The notes under the pieces were generated by a model that worked only from the letters and a program-made list of their open reading frames with translations, searched no databases and was not told the origin of the DNA. A DNA stretch of 24,404 bases from a virus. This document shows positions 5,681 through 20,168 of the stretch, in pieces; position 1 is the stretch's first letter, and each line of letters opens with the position of its first letter. The position numbers and the translations under genes were made by a program. Where the stretch lies: positions 1 to 24,404 of IMG/VR virus record IMGVR_UViG_3300044640_002987; one strand, given 5' to 3'.

Positions 5681-8002
5681 TCACTGATCAGTTGGGACAT
5701 CATTTCCCGCCAGCTTGATCCACTGGCTGGGTCTGCCGCCCGTTGGCATGGCGAACACCTCAACCAGGTGGGCGTCCGTTAAGGTACGTAGCACGCCATC
5801 TCGCTGGCGGTGGTCCATGAACTGGGTGCGCCGCGTGAACTCGCTCTTTGACATACCAGCGGCATCGCCATCACGCAGGATTTGCAAAGCGCGCTTGTGG
5901 TTGGACTCGACTTGGTTTTCTGAAACGCGCGCGCTTGCCTCTCGAATAGTCAGCTCGGCACAGTGGCGCGAGAGCGCAATTCCCCAGTGCGCATCGTGGT
6001 CCTCGATCTGGGGTGTCACCGCGTCGCGCGACACAGCGCGAATGAGAGCCAATTTGGTGGCGTTCTCTTCAATGCGCGCCAAGATCGATGAAAAACCGGT
6101 GCCTCGCGACAAGCGAAGCTTTGTCAACAACTCATGGTCAAGCAAGCGAAACGCGTCACGCGCTTGCGCGGTCATCGGGACGACACGCGGATCCACCAGC
6201 ACTTCATCAATCGCGCCCACATCCGTGAGGTTGCCGTTCAACTGACCACCTCCCTGGTGGATCAGCAGCAGTCGGTCGATGAGGTCTTGCGGGGGATCAA
6301 TCGTGCCAAAGAGTTCGTTGCTATTGGGGAAATCGTCCTCGCTCTCCAGAATCAGAAAGCGCGCCAATGAACCGTCGGCCACATTAGACGCCTGTAGCGC
6401 CTGCCAAAAGTGCAAGGGTGTGGTGGTGCCGTAGATGCAAGCGCAGGGCTGGTGAATGGCACGGTGCGCGTTGTTGAGTTGGTTGCTTGCGTACTCAATG
6501 CCAAAGTAAGTCGTGCCTGATGTGGTGTACAGCTCGGTCATCAGGTCCAGGATTTCACACACGTAGCGTGGGGAGCGTTTGCGGTCAGCGGCTGCCGACA
6601 AAAACATACCGAACTCATCTAGCTGAAAAAGAATGGCGGGCTGACGCTGGATGGCCGTCAAAAGACCCGAGCCCGATGCGATCTTGTTGCCACCCAGGTA
6701 TTGCAGCAACCCGGCCTTACGGAACAGCTCATTGATCACGACGCGGCTGTGGTTCTTGCCTGCGCCGCTCTCAGCGATACCTACGACATAAAGGTTCGAG
6801 CGCGTGTTGCTCTCGGTGCGGTACTTGCGCCCCATCAGCGCGCCGATTGCACACAAACTCGCTCCGAGCGCCAGCACGGGTTGTGGACGCTTGGCCGTCG
6901 TTACCATGAGCGCCATCATGTCGGCAATCACGCCGCCCACTTGGTCCCAGCCCGTCGGCAGTGGTTTGGGTGGTGGCAGCACGGGCGGTGCACCTGACAC
7001 ATCAATCGTGATGGGGTTTGTTGTTTGGAGCGTTTGCAACATCTCCTTGGCCGGGTGGTGTCCGTTCATCACAATCTCACCATTGAGCTGTAGATCAGCA
7101 TCCGGAATCCAGCCGTTGTCCAGCGCCAGCTTGTAGATGGTTCCCGCCCCAATGCGCTGAGGCGAAAAGCTCCCCCAACTTTTAGCGGTTGTCTTGGCAT
7201 CGTTTTTACTGGACGACGCAGACCAGGACTCAAAGAGCGGCCACCCCTGCTCGGCAAGCGCACCTTTGATGGCCATGCCAATGCGCACCCAGCTGTCGTA
7301 GTCCAGATCCTGGTTGGGGATGTACTGAAGCGCGTCCTGCACTGCCTCGAACGTGCCGCGTTGCTCGGGCAGATTGGCGAACGCCTCTGGAGACTTCAAA
7401 CCTACAGCCAGACTTTTGGGGCGCATAGATTCGGGGACCATCTCGTACGCCTGGCGCGCAAACTCTCGAGCCTGTTCCTCGGTGATGACAGGCAGTTCTT
7501 CGATTTTCAGGTCGGCCAAGGTTTGCACGGGCCACTCGTAGGGCTTGCCGGTATCCGGGTGAATGCCATAGGCGATGAACTGCTGCCCCACACCCAAGAC
7601 CTCAATGGGCGGGAACTTAAAGCCACTGAAAGGCTGGGCCGCACGGTACACCAGCAATCGCTTGGGGGCGTTGCCGATACGAACTGCAGGTGTGTCGCCC
7701 AGCAGCCGCTTGGCCAAGCCCTCAATCTGAACAGCGATGTCTTTGGACTGCAGCACATCAATGTCGATGCCAATCACCTTGCCTGCGGCAATACCAATGC
7801 CAGCCTCGGGCCAGTCGCCCCAAATGTCGACTTCGTTTTCTGTAGTGTCGCGCTCACAGTGACGGCTCCACTTGGGATAGTCTTGCCAGGCACCCAGGCG
7901 AAACATGCCCGGCTTCTTAGTGCTGGGTTGGATCGGCAAAATGGCATAGCCGCGATCTACGAGCGTGGCCCCAAGATGGGCCATGTAATTATTTGGATTC
8001 AT
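5681..8002 (-). CDS. Phage primase-polymerase / DUF3987-like ATPase
   Basis: 773 aa replication protein. The N-terminal prim-pol domain (to about 190) has the metal-binding IGIDID (D80, D82) and KRLLVYR. A PriCT-2-like primase C-terminal domain follows (YDSWVRIGMAIKGAL, about 235-280). The C-terminal half is a DUF3987/YfjI-type P-loop ATPase with Walker A ESGAGK near 414-420 and Walker B ILFQLDEFG near 458-465. It should prime and possibly unwind phage DNA. ATG at 8002 is chosen because AAGGAA lies just upstream; a TTG at 8014 would overlap the preceding stop. Last gene of the long early operon, 8 bases after the DUF6511-like gene. Intact. Confidence 0.9.
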   Translation of the reverse strand: MNPNNYMAHLGATLVDRGYAILPIQPSTKKPGMFRLGAWQDYPKWSRHCERDTTENEVDIWGDWPEAGIGIAAGKVIGIDIDVLQSKDIAVQIEGLAKRLLGDTPAVRIGNAPKRLLVYRAAQPFSGFKFPPIEVLGVGQQFIAYGIHPDTGKPYEWPVQTLADLKIEELPVITEEQAREFARQAYEMVPESMRPKSLAVGLKSPEAFANLPEQRGTFEAVQDALQYIPNQDLDYDSWVRIGMAIKGALAEQGWPLFESWSASSSKNDAKTTAKSWGSFSPQRIGAGTIYKLALDNGWIPDADLQLNGEIVMNGHHPAKEMLQTLQTTNPITIDVSGAPPVLPPPKPLPTGWDQVGGVIADMMALMVTTAKRPQPVLALGASLCAIGALMGRKYRTESNTRSNLYVVGIAESGAGKNHSRVVINELFRKAGLLQYLGGNKIASGSGLLTAIQRQPAILFQLDEFGMFLSAAADRKRSPRYVCEILDLMTELYTTSGTTYFGIEYASNQLNNAHRAIHQPCACIYGTTTPLHFWQALQASNVADGSLARFLILESEDDFPNSNELFGTIDPPQDLIDRLLLIHQGGGQLNGNLTDVGAIDEVLVDPRVVPMTAQARDAFRLLDHELLTKLRLSRGTGFSSILARIEENATKLALIRAVSRDAVTPQIEDHDAHWGIALSRHCAELTIREASARVSENQVESNHKRALQILRDGDAAGMSKSEFTRRTQFMDHRQRDGVLRTLTDAHLVEVFAMPTGGRPSQWIKLAGNDVPTDQ

Positions 8003-8010
8003 GCGTTCCT

Positions 8011-8334
8011 TCAAAATGGTGGGTCATCTGCATAGGCAGTGCGAAGTGAGTCTTGAAAGGCGGTCACGACCACATCAATCAAGGTTGACCACTCCACTGC
8101 GGTGAAGGTGGCCAAGTCTGTTTTGGCAAGTGACTCGACGTACTCGCCCCCTGTCTGGCAGGCCGCCGCCAGAGCATTGGTTTCATGTTGGTTTGGATCA
8201 ATCATTCCCTTTAGCCTTGCTGCAATGTTTTGACAGCGCCTGGAACACAACTTCACGCTGGGCGCATCGATACGGATCAAACAAGGCGCGAACCCATACC
8301 CTCGGGCATCGCGCCTGCAAATGGCGCACATCAT
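8011..8334 (-). CDS. DUF6511-like small cysteine-rich phage protein (107 aa)
   Basis: The N-terminus MMCAICRRDARGYGF with a later KLCSRRCQNI gives a C-x2-C ... C-x3-C pattern suggesting a zinc ribbon. It is followed by GMIDPNQHETNAL and a helical C-terminal part with WSTLIDVVVTAFQDSLR. I recognise the layout as the phage family DUF6511 (from memory). Function is unknown. It sits between the helicase and the primase/ATPase with gaps of 14 and 8 bases, so a replication accessory role is reasonable inference. Two adjacent ATG codons (8334 and 8331) open it. Confidence 0.78.
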   Translation of the reverse strand: MMCAICRRDARGYGFAPCLIRIDAPSVKLCSRRCQNIAARLKGMIDPNQHETNALAAACQTGGEYVESLAKTDLATFTAVEWSTLIDVVVTAFQDSLRTAYADDPPF

Positions 8335-14551: not shown

Positions 14552-15319
14552 TTACTGGTCAAGACTTTTCTTGGCATCTGCGAACTTGGTTTCAAGCCCT
14601 CGTTTTGAGATTCCAGGCTTGTTCCCAAAGTTAATTACTAGTGCTTCAATCACTGATGCCTGGTTAGAGAACAACGAATGCGCTTTACCTGCAGGACTTT
14701 TCATCAGGAACAAGTTCAGCATTCCACCGATGATGTTCAGGTAGGTAGTCTCAGCTCTGAGCCCAAGGTCTTTGGCGGGCTTAATCTGGTCAGTGAGTTT
14801 TGCTTTTTCGGCAATCAGCTCGTCCCGTTCGTTCCTCAACTTACGGTACTCATCCGCTGCTTTTTCAAGTCGCGCCCGTAATCCATCGCGTTCGGCCTGC
14901 AATGCCTGGTAGGCATCTTTATTGATGGCCGTATGTGTGTTGCGCTCAATGTCGTCAAACAAAAATTCAGGCTTGTCAGACGGGAACTGCGCCGCAATCC
15001 AGTCCTTGAGGTGTTGTCGCGAAATGTGACGTCGCTCTGGAGCGACATGCTCTTCGGTCGGCACGACTTTTCCGTTTTCCCTGCTGCAAGGCAGCAGTCC
15101 AGTCACGATCGCATCGTGGATCGCGCGGCACCTCGGCTCCAGGCAGTTGATGTAAGGGTGCTTCAGAACGCCCCTTGCAACTTCCGTGGACAACGCCAAG
15201 TGTTCTTCCACTTCTCCTGGCTCGATGCCACACCACAAAGCTGCAGCAACCGGCACGCGGTACACAGTGAAGTAAGACTGGACCGCTTCACAACTGTCGT
15301 TTTCCCATGCTTTTTTCAT
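14552..15319 (-). CDS. Coiled-coil protein of unknown function (255 aa)
   Basis: The N-terminal region (SYFTVYRVPVAAALWCGI, then HPYINCLEPRCRAIHDAI) and HLKDWIAAQFPSDKPEFLF (104-122) resemble regions common in uncharacterised proteobacterial accessory proteins. A long coiled coil covers about 137-185 (AERDGLRARLEKAADEYRKL). The C-terminal part (IEALVINFGNKPGISKRGL, ETKFADAKKSL) is a small helical domain that looks like a compact DNA-binding or oligomerisation unit. ATG at 15319; only a weak AGAG precedes it. Second gene of the early operon. No function known. Confidence 0.78.
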   Translation of the reverse strand: MKKAWENDSCEAVQSYFTVYRVPVAAALWCGIEPGEVEEHLALSTEVARGVLKHPYINCLEPRCRAIHDAIVTGLLPCSRENGKVVPTEEHVAPERRHISRQHLKDWIAAQFPSDKPEFLFDDIERNTHTAINKDAYQALQAERDGLRARLEKAADEYRKLRNERDELIAEKAKLTDQIKPAKDLGLRAETTYLNIIGGMLNLFLMKSPAGKAHSLFSNQASVIEALVINFGNKPGISKRGLETKFADAKKSLDQ

Positions 15320-15359: not shown

Positions 15360-15899
15360 TTAGGTTGGCTTGCTTTCTTCGGCAGGCTTTGAGGGCACCA
15401 TGTCGCTTGCACCAATGGCGATGGCACGGGTTTGCAACTCCCTGAAGATGCCCTCCTGGATGCGGTCCTTCAGATCCCAAACCACCTTATGTGGATTGAA
15501 GAGCAGCACGTAGTGGTGCGCGCCCGTGGGGCCTTCCTTGGCATCGATAAAGCCCAGTTCAACCAAGGAGCGCATCCGGTCTTTCCAGGTGCTCAATGCC
15601 CTCTCCCCGGTAAATCCGGACTCAAACGCCAAGGTCATCGGGTTGTCTATGGCCAACAGTGACTCGTCAAAAGTGCGGCACCACAAAACGAAATAGACCA
15701 TGCCTGCTGGCTTGTTCTTGGTCAGCGAGTCGATGATGTTCATGATCAAGGGCATCGTGCGGGGGATGGTGGTAAAGCCCTTCACCAGTTTTCGGTTCCA
15801 GAGCTTTTCATCGTCCAGGTCTGGCCAGCAGCTGTCGCGCAGCGCTTTGGCCTTCTCTTGGCCCTTGGAGATCTTTTTGGCGTTTGATGCAGCGGACAT
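15360..15899 (-). CDS. Possible winged-helix protein, first gene of the early operon (179 aa)
   Basis: Start at the ATG at 15899 (MSAASNAKKISKGQEKAK), with AAGGAA 6 bases upstream; the frame is open further upstream to 15935. The core (GFTTIPRTMPLIMNIIDSL, VYFVLWCRTFDESL, TWKDRMRSLVELGFIDAKEG, HYVLLFNPHKVVWDL) alternates helices and strands like plasmid or phage Rep-type winged helices. Its place at the head of the operon beside operator-like repeats suggests a regulatory or replication-initiation role. That is inference; I do not recognise the family. Confidence 0.75.
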   Translation of the reverse strand: MSAASNAKKISKGQEKAKALRDSCWPDLDDEKLWNRKLVKGFTTIPRTMPLIMNIIDSLTKNKPAGMVYFVLWCRTFDESLLAIDNPMTLAFESGFTGERALSTWKDRMRSLVELGFIDAKEGPTGAHHYVLLFNPHKVVWDLKDRIQEGIFRELQTRAIAIGASDMVPSKPAEESKPT

Positions 15900-15910: not shown

Positions 15911-16028
15911 TTGAGTTTTCGATTTCAGTGCCCAAATTCTAGGGCCAAATACTCAAACTCGCTATGATTAAAGCAGCGCTTTTGGCATTCAGTAACCGTC
16001 TAATATGTGTAACTCAAATGTTGAGTTA
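15911..16028. promoter_or_regulatory. TTGAGT/ACTCAA operator-like array between the two divergent operons
   Basis: A perfect 19-base palindrome TAACTCAAATGTTGAGTTA lies at 16010-16028. Its half-site recurs as ACTCAA at 15951-15956 and TTGAGT at 15911-15916, the last next to the ribosome site of the first early gene. Four copies of one hexamer in 118 bases of non-coding DNA suggests repressor binding. The regulator is not identified. Confidence 0.5.
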
Positions 16029-16087: not shown

Positions 16088-16116
16088 TTTACCCATATAA
16101 ATCAAGGGCTTATAAA
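16088..16116 (+). promoter_or_regulatory. Candidate sigma-70 promoter of the integration module
   Basis: TTTACC, 17-base spacer, TATAAA. This is a good match for spacing and -10 (5/6), and moderate for -35 (4/6). The transcript would start near 16123 and read through the CTGTGCT repeats and the large palindrome before the 64 aa ORF, leaving a leader of about 200 bases. Confidence 0.5.
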
Positions 16117-16133
16117 ATTTTTGCTGTGCTCAA

Positions 16134-16201
16134 TGTACTCAGTGGTCCTGTGCTTCTGTGCTCCTTAGTTATCCTGTGCCCGCCCATGGCGGGCACAGGA
16201 T
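16134..16201. repeat. CTGTGCY repeats and a 31-base palindrome in the integration-module leader
   Basis: CTGTGCT occurs at 16134-16140, 16148-16154 and 16156-16162, and CTGTGCC at 16174-16180. The last belongs to a perfect inverted repeat with 14-base arms (left arm ATCCTGTGCCCGCC, 16171-16184; right arm 16188-16201) around a 3-base centre CAT. No U-run follows, so it is not a normal terminator. It could be an operator, a recombinase accessory or attachment site, or a leader hairpin. The repeated motif and its inverted copy point to protein binding. The remaining 120 bases to 16321 show nothing clear. Confidence 0.6.
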
Positions 16202-16321
16202 GCAGCGGAATTGCCCAAATACCCCCGTCAAACCCCATCTGACATTGCAGGTGGGCGTGGGTTTGGCCCTCTAAGTGCTGCCCTCCTGAGAAAACACCCC
16301 CCTGCGGCGGTATGAACCTTC

Positions 16322-16516
16322 ATGACCGCCCCAAAACACACCCCACAACCAACTCCGCCCGCAGAGCGCAGCCCCATGGCCGTCATCGGCGCAATCCTGG
16401 CCCAGGGGGCAATTCGCCTTCTGGACCGCCAAAAGCGCGAAGCTCAACTTGCTAACCGTACCGAAGAGAGCGTTCATACAGGTGTTTTGACTACCAAGGA
16501 CAACACCCATGAATGA
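16322..16516 (+). CDS. Small ORF of 64 aa heading the integration module
   Basis: Pro-rich N-terminus (APKHTPQPTPPAERS) then MAVIGAILAQGAIRLLDRQK, an amphipathic helix, and a polar tail. Its last bases overlap the DUF2924 start by 8 (ATGAATGA), which favours a real, coupled gene. No clear Shine-Dalgarno precedes the ATG. Small ORFs in this position are common upstream of DUF2924-recombinase pairs. Function unknown; a recombination directionality factor is one speculative possibility. Confidence 0.5.
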   Translation: MTAPKHTPQPTPPAERSPMAVIGAILAQGAIRLLDRQKREAQLANRTEESVHTGVLTTKDNTHE

Positions 16517-16952
16517 CTCACTTGTTGCACGCGTTGCAGCCCTTAAAACCTCGCCCACTCCGGACCTCAAGCAAATGTGGCGGGAAATGTTTCTGACTGA
16601 ACCCCCGCCCTTTAACCGGCGTTTCCTTGAAACACGTCTGGCCTACCGCATTCAGGAGCTGGCCCTTGGCGGCCTGAGGCGCGAGACCATAAAGCGCCTA
16701 GAGAAGTTGGGCGAGCAGCTCGACGGAGGCAAACCGGATGTGCGCCGCCGCCGGATTGACGGCAGGCCCCTTGCAGGAACTCGCCTGATAAGGGAATGGG
16801 ACGGCCAGCGCCACGAAGTAGTGGTGCACGTCGACGACTTTGAATACGCAGGCCAGCGCTACAAGTCAATTTCGCGCATCGCCATGGTGATCACCGGCAC
16901 CAACCGAAACGGTTGGACGTTCTTTGGCATGTCTACCGGAAGGAGCATTTGA
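16509..16952 (+). CDS. DUF2924 domain protein (147 aa)
   Basis: Key stretches are LVARVAALKTSPTPDLKQMW, PPPFNRRFLETRLAYRIQEL, LAGTRLIREWDGQRHEVVV and YKSISRIAMVITGTNRNGW. This is the DUF2924 pattern (residues about 5-140). The family is nearly always encoded immediately before a large serine recombinase in proteobacterial mobile elements, but its role is not established. AGGA lies 8 bases before the ATG. Its stop overlaps the recombinase start by one base. The normal length suggests it is functional. Confidence 0.9.
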   Translation: MNDSLVARVAALKTSPTPDLKQMWREMFLTEPPPFNRRFLETRLAYRIQELALGGLRRETIKRLEKLGEQLDGGKPDVRRRRIDGRPLAGTRLIREWDGQRHEVVVHVDDFEYAGQRYKSISRIAMVITGTNRNGWTFFGMSTGRSI

Positions 16953-18295
16953 TGACCGCCACACCTAAAGTTCTTTGTGCGATCTACACGCGCAAGTCCA
17001 CCGAAGAAGGGTTGGACCAAAACTTCAACTCACTGGACGCCCAACACGATGCCTGCGCCAATTACATTGCCAGCCAAAAGTCTGAGGGCTGGGTAACGCT
17101 CAAGGACCGGTATGACGACGGCGGCTTCTCAGGAGGCACACTTGACCGCCCGGCCATCAAGCGTCTGCTCGAAGACGTCCGTAAGGGACTGGTCAACACC
17201 ATCGTGGTTTACAAGATTGATCGGTTGTCTCGTTCGCTTGCCGACTTTGCAAAGCTGGTCGAGCTGTTTGATCAGCATAAGGTGACCTTTGTATCGGTCA
17301 CCCAGTCATTCAACACCACCACGTCCATGGGGCGGTTGACGCTCAACATACTGCTGTCCTTTGCACAGTTTGAGCGTGAGTTGTCCGGTGAACGGGTGCG
17401 CGACAAGATCGCCGCCTCACGCAAGCGTGGCATTTGGATGGGTGGCATGCCCGCTTTGGGCTATGACGTGGTTGAGCGCAAGCTTGTAGCCAATCCGCAG
17501 GAGTCGCCCATCATCCAAGAGATGTTCTCCCGCTTTGCCGCAACGCCATCGATGTCCACCATTGTCAAAGACCTGCGCAAACGCGGCATCACTTCCAAGT
17601 CGTGGACAACGTCCAAGGGTGTGGAGCGCCAAGGCAAACTGATCACCAAGGGAGCGGTCTACAAGATCTTCAGCAACCCGGTCTACATCGGCATTGCTGC
17701 CTATAAGGGACAGCACTTCCCCGGCGAGCACGAGGGCATCATCACCCAGGAGCTTTGGGACACAGTGCAGACGCACCTGAAAAACGGTACCCCAATGAAT
17801 AAGGCGAGACTGGCGGGTCGCGGCAGCGCCCCCTCTCTTCTGCGGGGCCTTCTGTTCTCGGAGCAAGGACGGGCCTTCACGCCTGGCTGGACGCGCAAGC
17901 AGCACAAAACCTACCGCTACTACATCAACACCGACTCGATCAAGATCGGCAAAGAAAGCTGCGACATCTGCCGCATCCCCGCCGGTGAGATCGAACAGGT
18001 GGTTGTTGAAAAGATGCGTGGCATCCTGCGCTCACCAGAGGTGCTGGCCCACGCGGTGCGTGAGGTCAATACGCAGCGGCCCAAGGTTGAAGAGACAAAA
18101 GCAATTAGCGCATTGCAATCTGTCGACGAGGTCTGGGACGAACTCTTCCCTGCGGAGCAGGCCAAAGTTCTTCATACCCTGGTTGAACGCATCACTGTGC
18201 GCAAGGACGGCATATCAATCAAATGGCACGACAAGGGGTTGAACAAGCTGTTGCGCGACACACTCGAACCACAAAAAGAACTGGAGGCTGCATGA
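16952..18295 (+). CDS. Large serine recombinase (prophage integrase)
   Basis: 447 aa. The resolvase/invertase catalytic domain (8-158) has nucleophile S16 in AIYTRKSTEEG, R14, and the D90-R91/R94 cluster in YKIDRLSRS; helix E is FAQFERELSGERVRDKIA. A Recombinase domain follows (about 165-275, GYDV, ITKGAVYKIFSNPVYIG), then a zinc-ribbon-like region (RGLLFSEQGRAFTPGW) that keeps only one C-x2-C pair (CDIC), and a C-terminal coiled part. It should integrate and excise the prophage at short att cores. ATG at 16952 is favoured by AGGAG 6 bases upstream. It is coupled to DUF2924 before and the HTH gene after (ATGA overlap). Catalytically intact by sequence. Confidence 0.95.
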   Translation: MTATPKVLCAIYTRKSTEEGLDQNFNSLDAQHDACANYIASQKSEGWVTLKDRYDDGGFSGGTLDRPAIKRLLEDVRKGLVNTIVVYKIDRLSRSLADFAKLVELFDQHKVTFVSVTQSFNTTTSMGRLTLNILLSFAQFERELSGERVRDKIAASRKRGIWMGGMPALGYDVVERKLVANPQESPIIQEMFSRFAATPSMSTIVKDLRKRGITSKSWTTSKGVERQGKLITKGAVYKIFSNPVYIGIAAYKGQHFPGEHEGIITQELWDTVQTHLKNGTPMNKARLAGRGSAPSLLRGLLFSEQGRAFTPGWTRKQHKTYRYYINTDSIKIGKESCDICRIPAGEIEQVVVEKMRGILRSPEVLAHAVREVNTQRPKVEETKAISALQSVDEVWDELFPAEQAKVLHTLVERITVRKDGISIKWHDKGLNKLLRDTLEPQKELEAA

Positions 18296-18708
18296 GCAAC
18301 GATACCGACGCGGGTCTCACGACCGAGATTCCGATGACTTTTCGCAGGCGTGGGGGCAAGGCAGTGATCGTGATGCCCGACGGTTCTCGGGCGATCGAGC
18401 GGCGTGAGGCACTGATTGACAACGCCATGATCAAACTCTTGGCACGCGGACACCGCTGGCACCGAAAACTATTTGATGGCACTCACGCCTCCATTGAGGA
18501 CATGGCCAAGTCCGAAAACATCAGCCCATCTTTTGTGAGCCGCATTTTGCGCCTGGCATATTTGTCACCGACGGTCGTTGAAGCCATCCTGGACGGTAAA
18601 TATCCGGCGCAACTAACGATGAAAGATCTGATGGAGCCGTTTCCCATGGAATGGGAGCTGCAGGCTGAACATTTCTTTAACCGGCCCAGTACCATCAACG
18701 ATAGATGA
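18292..18708 (+). CDS. HTH protein linked to the serine recombinase (138 aa)
   Basis: Start at the ATG at 18292, overlapping the recombinase stop as ATGA, with GGAGG 5 bases upstream. The N-terminal part (FRRRGGKAVIVMPDG) is beta-like; then ALIDNAMIKLLARGHRWHR and a helix-turn-helix at about 66-90 (ASIEDMAKSENISPSFVSRI) followed by VVEAILDGKYPAQLTMKDL. This KorB/ParB-like HTH arrangement is frequent directly after such recombinases. It may regulate the module or assist recombination; there is no direct evidence for either. Last recognisable phage gene before the metal-resistance locus. Confidence 0.82.
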   Translation: MSNDTDAGLTTEIPMTFRRRGGKAVIVMPDGSRAIERREALIDNAMIKLLARGHRWHRKLFDGTHASIEDMAKSENISPSFVSRILRLAYLSPTVVEAILDGKYPAQLTMKDLMEPFPMEWELQAEHFFNRPSTINDR

Positions 18709-19006
18709 TCCTGACTCAACCTCCAACTCTCTGGTTTCTGGATTTATTCTCTAGCAATCAAACTCATTAAGCTGACTAATCACAAGAACTAGATTTAGGA
18801 ATAAATATTCAGAAAACGCTACATCCGCTTTGTCGTATTCATCGCACAAGCCCGAGAGGCAACTCCGCAGCGGTAGTCGTCTTTCATGACGAAATCCTGA
18901 ATGATCGGTTTCTGCCAAAAGCTGACTTAGGCTTAAAAAGCCTAACTGGTTGGTTCGAACCGATTGACTGCCTTTCTGCGTATTTCGGTCTCAGGGCGTC
19001 TGAATA
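18709..19006. other. Gene-free junction, likely prophage right boundary
   Basis: About 300 bases without a plausible gene. The first 120 bases are AT-rich; after about 18825 composition returns to that of the flanking genes. Two exact palindromes are present: TTAGGCTTAAAAAGCCTAA at 18927-18945 and GGTTCGAACC at 18952-18961. An attachment core should lie here or just right of the HTH gene, but without the left prophage end the duplicated core cannot be identified. Confidence 0.4.
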
Positions 19007-19432
19007 TTAAGTTGGATGGCATGCGCAAGACTCCCCTTGAGCGGCGGACACTAGCTCTTCAAGAATGCCGCAGTGCGCCCCCTCGTGGGTACCGGAGCAT
19101 CGCGCCCGCAGCCTTACCAACTGCTTCTCCAGTGCCCTCATGCTCTTGAGGCGGGCGCGCACACGGGCCAACTGGTCGTCCACGAGAAGATCGACATCGC
19201 CGCAGTTTGTGTCCGGTTTATCAACGAATCGCAGTAGCCGGTTCACATCGCCCAGCGGCATGTCCAGGGCCCGGCAGTGGCGGATGAACGACAGGCGCTC
19301 AAGGTGAGCCGCCGCGTAGTCGCGGTAGCCGTTGTCGCGCCGAGCTGGCGCGGGCATCAAGCCCTGTTTTTCGTAGTAACGGATAGTTTCGACATCCACG
19401 CCGGTGGCGCGGGCAAGTTCCTTGATCTGCAT
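19007..19432 (-). CDS. cadR: Cd(II)/Pb(II)-responsive MerR-family regulator (CadR/PbrR type)
   Basis: 141 aa. The N-terminal winged HTH is MQIKELARATGVDVETIRYY with RRDNGYRDYAAAHLERLSFI; a dimerisation helix follows (about 80-110). Metal-binding cysteines C77, C112 and C121 are present as in CadR and PbrR, and a C-terminal Cys-rich tail (CACHPT) adds possible ligands. ATG at 19432 is the family-standard start. It faces away from the CDF transporter and shares a promoter region with a MerR-type operator, so it should activate the transporter when Cd, Pb or Zn is present. Cd versus Pb preference cannot be read from sequence; the symbol is tentative. Confidence 0.9.
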   Translation of the reverse strand: MQIKELARATGVDVETIRYYEKQGLMPAPARRDNGYRDYAAAHLERLSFIRHCRALDMPLGDVNRLLRFVDKPDTNCGDVDLLVDDQLARVRARLKSMRALEKQLVRLRARCSGTHEGAHCGILEELVSAAQGESCACHPT

Positions 19433-19458
19433 GACATGATCCTGCTTTAAATAAGTAT

Positions 19459-19489
19459 TTGACACTGTAGCGGCTATAGGGTTTCCAAT
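19459..19489 (+). promoter_or_regulatory. MerR-type promoter/operator of the CDF transporter
   Basis: TTGACA (19459-19464), 19-base spacer, TCCAAT (19484-19489). The spacer holds the dyad CTGTAG-cgg-CTATAG (19465-19479). An overlong 19-base spacer with a central dyad is the hallmark of promoters that MerR-family activators untwist. It lies between the divergent cadR-like gene and the transporter, whose ATG is 22 bases downstream. Confidence 0.85.
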
Positions 19490-19511
19490 GCAAGTATTGA
19501 AAGGAAAACCC

Positions 19512-20168
19512 ATGTCCGCCCACTGTTCTAGCCACGACACACCAAAACTTGATGCCATTGTCAACCTGGCCCGTTACCGCAAGATCCTCTGGATCGCCCT
19601 CGTGGTCAATGCCGCGATGTTCCTGGTCGAAATCGTTGCTGGCGTTCAGTCTGGGTCACTTTCTTTGCTGGCCGACGCGGTCGATTTTGCTGGAGATGCA
19701 ACGAACTACGCCGTGTCGCTCGCAGTGCTGGCTTCGGCGCTGGCATGGCGAGCGCGCGCAGCCATGCTCAAAGCCATGAGCATGATGGGTTTTGGCCTGT
19801 ATGTGCTGGGTGCAGCACTGTGGTCGGTGTGGAACGGCGGCGTGCCTCTGGCCACCACCATGGGTACGATAGCCCTCCTGGCGCTGATGGCCAACATCAC
19901 GGTGGCATGGATGCTCTACGCCTTCCGCGAAGGCGATGCCAACATGCGAAGCGTGTGGTTGTGCTCTCGCAACGACGCCATCGGCAACCTTGCCGTGTTC
20001 ATCGCGGCCTTGGGTGTGTTTGGTACCGGCTCGGCCTGGCCCGATCTTGCAGTAGCCAGCCTCATGGCGGCGCTGGCATTGCATGGCGGCTGGTTGGTGC
20101 TAAGGCAGGCTCGCAGTGAACTGGGCGAAGACACGGCAAAGAAAGACCACCATGACCAACTCCACTGA
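19512..20168 (+). CDS. Cation diffusion facilitator-family transporter (218 aa)
   Basis: Inner-membrane cation/proton antiporter of the CDF type, without the long cytoplasmic C-terminal domain. About six membrane segments start at KILWIALVVNAAMFLVEIVA. The usual TM2 H-x3-D is D58-x3-D62 (LLADAVDFAGD) and the TM5 H-x3-D is C151-x3-D155 (LCSRNDAIGN). Short His/Cys-containing tails occur at both ends (SAHCSSHD; KKDHHDQLH). ATG at 19512 with AAAGGA upstream. Driven by the MerR-type promoter; overlaps the DUF3703 gene by 17 bases. Likely exports Cd/Zn/Pb-type ions to the periplasm. Its usual annotation would be cation transporter. Confidence 0.88.
   Translation: MSAHCSSHDTPKLDAIVNLARYRKILWIALVVNAAMFLVEIVAGVQSGSLSLLADAVDFAGDATNYAVSLAVLASALAWRARAAMLKAMSMMGFGLYVLGAALWSVWNGGVPLATTMGTIALLALMANITVAWMLYAFREGDANMRSVWLCSRNDAIGNLAVFIAALGVFGTGSAWPDLAVASLMAALALHGGWLVLRQARSELGEDTAKKDHHDQLH

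Follow-up and report, generated by a model that had tools for sequence, protein, structure and literature searches.

The window analysed here is a virus record from IMG/VR, 24,404 bases long, in which a perfect palindrome sits between two divergent gene sets. This position raises the question of which set the palindrome serves, and in what capacity. Phage genes run leftward as far as the gene at 15360-15899, and a rightward integration module comes next. The features that bear on the question are the following.

14552-15319, minus strand: second leftward gene, 255 aa, coiled-coil-like
15360-15899, minus strand: left gene, the first of the leftward phage operon, 179 aa, encoding a probable winged-helix DNA-binding protein of an unnamed family (from a structure model and homologues)
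16010-16028, no strand: separate conserved inverted repeat, TAACTCAA-ATG...TTGAGTTA, nearer the start of the left gene
16096-16116, minus strand: conserved ATATAAATCAAGGGCTTATAA block adjoining the array, from reading of the sequences
16124-16163, minus strand: degenerate direct-repeat array, GAGCACAG / AAGCACAG / GACCACT / GAGTACA / GAGCACAG, spaced 7-9 bp
16164-16170, no strand: 7-bp link between array and palindrome
16171-16201, no strand: the palindrome (class A dyad), 31 bp, perfect, with 14-bp arms and a CAT centre
16286-16324, plus strand: conserved 5' edge of the integration module, CTGAGAAA...GGTATGAACCTTCATG, common to loci with differing left neighbours (BLAST and sequence comparison)
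16322-16516, plus strand: small ORF, 64 aa, first of the integration module
16509-16952, plus strand: DUF2924 protein (profile match, E 1.3e-44)
16952-18295, plus strand: large serine recombinase
18289-18708, plus strand: ParB/SopB-type HTH protein of the integration module

The palindrome reads ATCCTGTGCCCGCC-CAT-GGCGGGCACAGGAT, and its arms are complementary at 14 of 14 positions. It is the only perfect hairpin in the window with arms of at least 10 bases and a loop of at most 8. A perfect hairpin with 14-bp arms appeared in none of 300 dinucleotide shuffles of the window, the longest shuffled arm being 13, seen once. No second copy was present in the window at up to three mismatches, and the intergenic region gave no DNA match in phage or plasmid collections; on these grounds we rejected a dispersed repeat. 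Exact copies of CTGTGCT begin at 16124, 16148 and 16156; they are array units (GAnnACAnn, with a period of about 9 bases) read on the other strand, and the units in the window are spaced 8-8-7-9 rather than strictly 9. A near-copy of the array core, GGGCACAG, which has one mismatch to GAGCACAG, lies in both arms of the palindrome (16174-16181 and 16191-16198). The original prediction had described a perfect palindrome around CAT, a repeat motif within each arm and three preceding CTGTGCT copies, and all of this holds, except that the first copy falls just outside the interval 16134-16201 that it had given. It was also right that the site is not a standard terminator. An intrinsic (Rho-independent) terminator combines a GC-rich stem-loop with a U-run, and we rejected this candidate because the stem is present and a T-run after it is absent on either strand; no terminator-like site was found.

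To assign the palindrome to an operon, we compared loci that carry relatives of the recombinase. Using the recombinase as the query, we collected 65 viral and 42 genome loci. The linkage comparison covered 72 of these 107, and the other 35, which were distant or had their upstream region cut, had no left-gene match. When the intergenic region was compared by BLAST, some loci aligned throughout and these have a left-gene homologue, whereas others aligned only rightward from ~16285. The class A palindrome was found in 12 of the 72 loci, and the left gene was present in all 12. The left gene was missing from 46 of the 72, and none of these 46 had the class A palindrome. At a recombinase identity of 94% or more there were 24 loci, of which 10 had both the palindrome and the left gene and 14 had neither. 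The palindrome was absent from loci with a 95-99% identical recombinase and another left neighbour (L002, L009, L011, L068 and L070), while the outer arms were unchanged in L076 and L016 despite recombinases only 76-85% identical; L076 keeps the palindrome with a recombinase 76% and an HTH protein 61% identical to those of the window. An independent pattern scan of 2.9 million viral contigs (IMG/VR) found class A in 15 contigs, all among the 34 with a left gene, and the pattern of a second form, class C, in two, both also among the 34. The palindrome follows the left gene across loci and contigs, and the site therefore belongs to the upstream region of the left operon. Neither class A nor class C was found in 11 of the 26 left-gene loci, so the palindrome is not needed for the gene or the array. 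From these sequence comparisons, we conclude that the palindrome is part of the control region of the leftward operon and not of the integration module.

This assignment bears directly on the original prediction, which had tied the palindrome to the integration module as a site for the recombinase or the HTH protein, possibly near attP, or as an operator. The location upstream of the integration genes speaks for a site of the serine recombinase or the ParB-like HTH protein, or for a part of attP. Against it stand the linkage counts above, with the palindrome absent beside many recombinases that are at least 94% identical and present beside a 76% identical one, and the finding that sequence common to modules with differing left neighbours begins only at ~16285. 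The end of the element is also distant. Similarity to relatives ends at ~18680 and host-like similarity begins at ~18955; the right end of the element lies between these two points, at least 2.4 kb from the palindrome. An attP of the serine integrase was rejected, since the palindrome at 16171-16201 is not at the element junction and is not inherited together with the recombinase. We regard this whole reading as extremely improbable. The comparison of the same intergenic region in relatives, which had been proposed as a check, did find the palindrome to be conserved, so the refutation that had been named, absence of conservation in relatives, does not apply. Of the original ideas an operator remains the best one, with the change that it would serve the left operon.

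We then examined how the site is constrained. Among 14 distinct class A upstreams, which are close relatives in which invariance overstates the independent evidence, the outer 12 positions of both arms were invariant (24/24), as were the link (7/7) and 29 of the 40 array positions. The corresponding counts were 16/64 for the AT-rich stretch, 16/80 for the flank towards the integration genes and 2/7 for the centre of the palindrome. All but one of the 14 keep the 31-bp frame, the exception being L128 with 30. Class C comprises three distinct upstreams, with left genes 77-78% identical and arms ATCGCGTGCCGA/TCGGCACGCGAT; in each of the three, 13 of 15 pairs form within an unchanged 31-bp frame, and both arms differ in sequence from those of class A. 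Five class D upstreams retain outer pairs 1-4 and 6 in that frame and two others retain pairs 2-4 and 6, but the inner arms of this class do not pair. The remaining left-gene lineages showed no consistent dyad. This comparison of geometry left out L144, L146 and L147, where truncation of the gene means that the sequence before it is not its genuine upstream, and L022, which offered no anchor. An arm resembles an array unit well in class A only; the class C arms have GGCACGC, compared with GATTACA/GAGTACA in the class C array. By these alignments, the palindrome is a lineage-specific addition that is strongly constrained where it is present.

GAnnACAnn arrays occur upstream of many left-gene homologues, on small plasmids and in other phages. 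At least three GAnnAC units at 7-10 bp spacing were found upstream of 21 of 28 homologues, and in each case no more than 1 of 200 shuffles had such a chain. Six units spaced 9-9-10-9-9 precede the homologues on a 5775-bp E. coli plasmid (L109) and a Gemmobacter plasmid (L167). Six units were also counted in L110, L113 and L152, and five in phage Musica (L112) and L166. The other seven upstreams (L111, L138, L160, L161, L163, L168 and L169) had no chain of three units; those of L163, L169 and L161 looked repetitive by eye with another motif. In a motif-free test over lags 6-20, lag 9 was best in 14 of 24 upstreams, lag 18 in three, lag 8 in four and other lags in three. For 10 of the 14 lag-9 upstreams no more than 8 of 200 shuffles did as well, and for the other four more than 8 did.

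At E <=1e-5 the left protein has homologues in 164 plasmid records, many of them small plasmids of Enterobacterales such as a cryptic 3789-bp E. coli plasmid, and in a single phage record; others are in 34 viral contigs and in 6/399 and 6/300 genomes sampled around two hosts. The plasmid records examined give the gene with its array no annotation beyond hypothetical. The protein had no match in PHROGs, NCBIfam or PADLOC and no Pfam match above the cut-off; weak HrcA_DNA-bdg matches were seen in 4 of the 23 members of the family alignment (A2). The family profile matched no PDB sequence at E <=5. The structure model has a mean pLDDT of 60 and is usable only in its core, residues ~45-135 (pLDDT 54-91 per block of ten), which is a winged helix. 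PDB matches to this core were generic, with Z of at most 8.3 and many ties (VIA-align), and Foldseek likewise returned generic winged-helix matches, none decisive, with a best E of 0.018. With this model, we regard the left protein as probably a DNA-binding protein of the winged-helix kind, in a family that has no name.

We propose that the palindrome is a putative DNA dyad bound by a homodimer, most likely of the left-gene winged-helix protein, and that it controls the leftward operon, maintenance of the element, or both. We give this reading a probability of roughly 0.45. The half-sites are conserved at a fixed spacing and the centre is free, as in a dyad operator. From the observed association, constraint and geometry, we infer binding and effect along the following lines. 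The palindrome, which starts ~270 bp from the first gene of the leftward operon, would be a lineage-specific dyad docked at the outer edge of the conserved array upstream of that operon. A homodimer could place one subunit on each arm, each contacting an inverted copy of the array motif. The winged-helix protein might load on the dyad and then spread along the array as a multimer, and the protein bound to array and dyad would control the leftward operon, help to maintain the replicating element, or do both. The same cassette of gene plus array may act likewise on small plasmids. The binder of the dyad could also be another protein of the left operon.

The same inverted repeat could instead act as RNA. 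Transcribed from either side, a hairpin might block or process transcripts at the boundary of the divergent operons, as a terminator without a U-tract or as a stability or antitermination element. The predicted stem is strong (-30.9 kcal/mol on the plus strand, z -5.5; -32.5 on the minus strand, z -6.8), and constant arms with a variable tip would suit a hairpin. However, the region lacks a U-run and a terminator-like site, as described above, and has no Rfam match. Geometry also bears on the choice, because the frame is fixed at 31 bp in 13 of 14 class A and all three class C upstreams while a loop would vary, the tip having 1-7 unpaired nucleotides. Fixed frame and free centre thus favour, by a small margin, a dyad recognised as DNA by a dimer over an RNA hairpin, and we consider the RNA reading unlikely.

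A replication origin of phage or plasmid type was also considered, in which array, AT-rich block and palindrome act together and the palindrome serves as hairpin, cruciform or inverted iteron. In favour, the region upstream of the winged-helix gene combines direct repeats with an adjacent AT-rich block and an IHF-like motif; this motif, AATCAAGGGCTTA within 16096-16116, fits the IHF consensus, WATCAANNNNTTR. The structure model resembles the winged helices of replication initiators (4pt7 and 5kbj, Z 6.6-6.8), although these were tied with unrelated structures. Against an origin, the prophage has a primase-type replication gene of its own (5681-8014), and 8 of the 9 complete homologue-bearing plasmid records that were scanned carry another replicon: RNAI (ColE1-type) in five (L109, L162, L163, L164 and L166), RepM in L110 and L165, and TrfA in L111. 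No other replicon was recognised in the ninth, L113. A role as plasmid Rep is disfavoured by these replicons, and because eight of nine plasmids have one, the left protein is unlikely to be a replication initiator. We consider an origin a good deal less than likely. A further explanation is mutational, with template switching at replication turning one arm into a copy of the other and leaving a perfect palindrome without function. The array-side arm can be aligned in classes A, C and D and complementarity of the opposite arm is confined to A and C, as such copying might produce, but across 14 distinct sequences neither outer arm varies, whereas the adjacent DNA diverges. This origin of the palindrome appears very unlikely.

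Returning to the dyad of the left operon, its reassignment from the integration module links the palindrome to the gene-plus-array cassette of the 164 plasmid records. Tentatively, and as a possibility that we consider rather unlikely, the winged-helix family and its array of about six repeats with a 9-bp period may form a single-gene maintenance cassette, for segregation or copy control, spread over temperate phages and over plasmids both small (ColE1-type and others) and larger, to which one prophage lineage would have added a 31-bp inverted-repeat loading site at the array edge. If the cassette is a single-protein maintenance system, it would bear on how these elements persist. The downstream genes differ between plasmids, which speaks against a two-gene toxin-antitoxin system.

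Our literature search returned nothing that we recognised as this array or protein family, and we compared the locus with systems of similar form. Iteron-type plasmid origins share the direct repeats, the AT-rich block and the IHF-like motif upstream of a winged-helix gene, and in iteron plasmids inverted iteron copies can serve as operators. They differ in that left-gene homologues sit on plasmids with other replicons, and classical iterons are longer than units of ~9 bp. Operators of phage early operons are similar in having a dyad within a divergent control region. Here, however, the dyad is ~270 bp from the left gene start and adjoins a repeat array, and the separate AACTCA...TGAGTT inverted repeat at 16010-16028 is nearer that start and is a candidate for a conventional operator. 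A third likeness is with stbA of plasmid R388. In the excerpted account of that system (PMC3098194), the promoter of the gene for a DNA-binding protein is surrounded by the stbDRs, 9-bp direct repeats in two sets of five; the units are spaced by 2 nt, have the consensus TTGCATCAT and belong to a single-protein plasmid segregation system. Both cases place a short direct-repeat array before a DNA-binding gene in a setting of plasmid maintenance, a likeness of form only. The units here recur every ~9 bp (GAnnACAnn), in contrast to 9-bp units with 2-nt spacers, and the excerpted account of stbA mentions no 31-bp palindrome. The resemblance is one of plan and not of demonstrated descent.

Several further observations concern the surroundings of the site. 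In phages that have the integration module but an HTH left gene (XRE-like by eye), another palindrome, GTCGTTGC-ATTATAnC-GCAACGAC, occupies the same place before the divergent gene, a further likeness to early-operon operators. Examples are L011:5260-5283, L020:4949-4982, L074:5260-5293 and L025:2119-2150, among others, and the core was matched in 14 of the 72 loci. The spot upstream of the integration module is a regulatory exchange point. On the module side, the block CTGAGAAA...CGGTATGAACCTTCATG at 16286-16324, conserved across modules with differing left neighbours, abuts the ATG of the small ORF and could be a promoter for a leaderless transcript. Among class D upstreams, several (L037:5242-5272 and others) have one half-site whose inner part mirrors that of the other rather than complementing it, as in ACGGCT and TCGGCA, which may be chance.

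Beyond the module, a MerR-type gene and efflux-type genes (efflux named by eye) follow from ~18955, and this DNA is probably host DNA. A contig with a relative of the integration module has the same MerR/efflux DNA beyond the module (L072:6183-6966, 91% identical to 18955-19738 of the window), and related elements may share an insertion neighbourhood. Small plasmids have a variable second gene of 164-187 aa after the left-gene homologue (L162:1997-3013, L109:1186-2193, L164:2826-3902, L166:1949-3027 and L163:2819-3881). A weak resemblance to YjaZ was seen in two of these second genes, and the L164 and L166 copies are mutually related; homologue and second gene together are possibly an arrangement of regulator plus cargo. 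The 3356-bp Serratia plasmid L162 has two annotated genes, and by our reading its ORF list contains just two entries that look like real proteins, the homologue and one ORF downstream of it.
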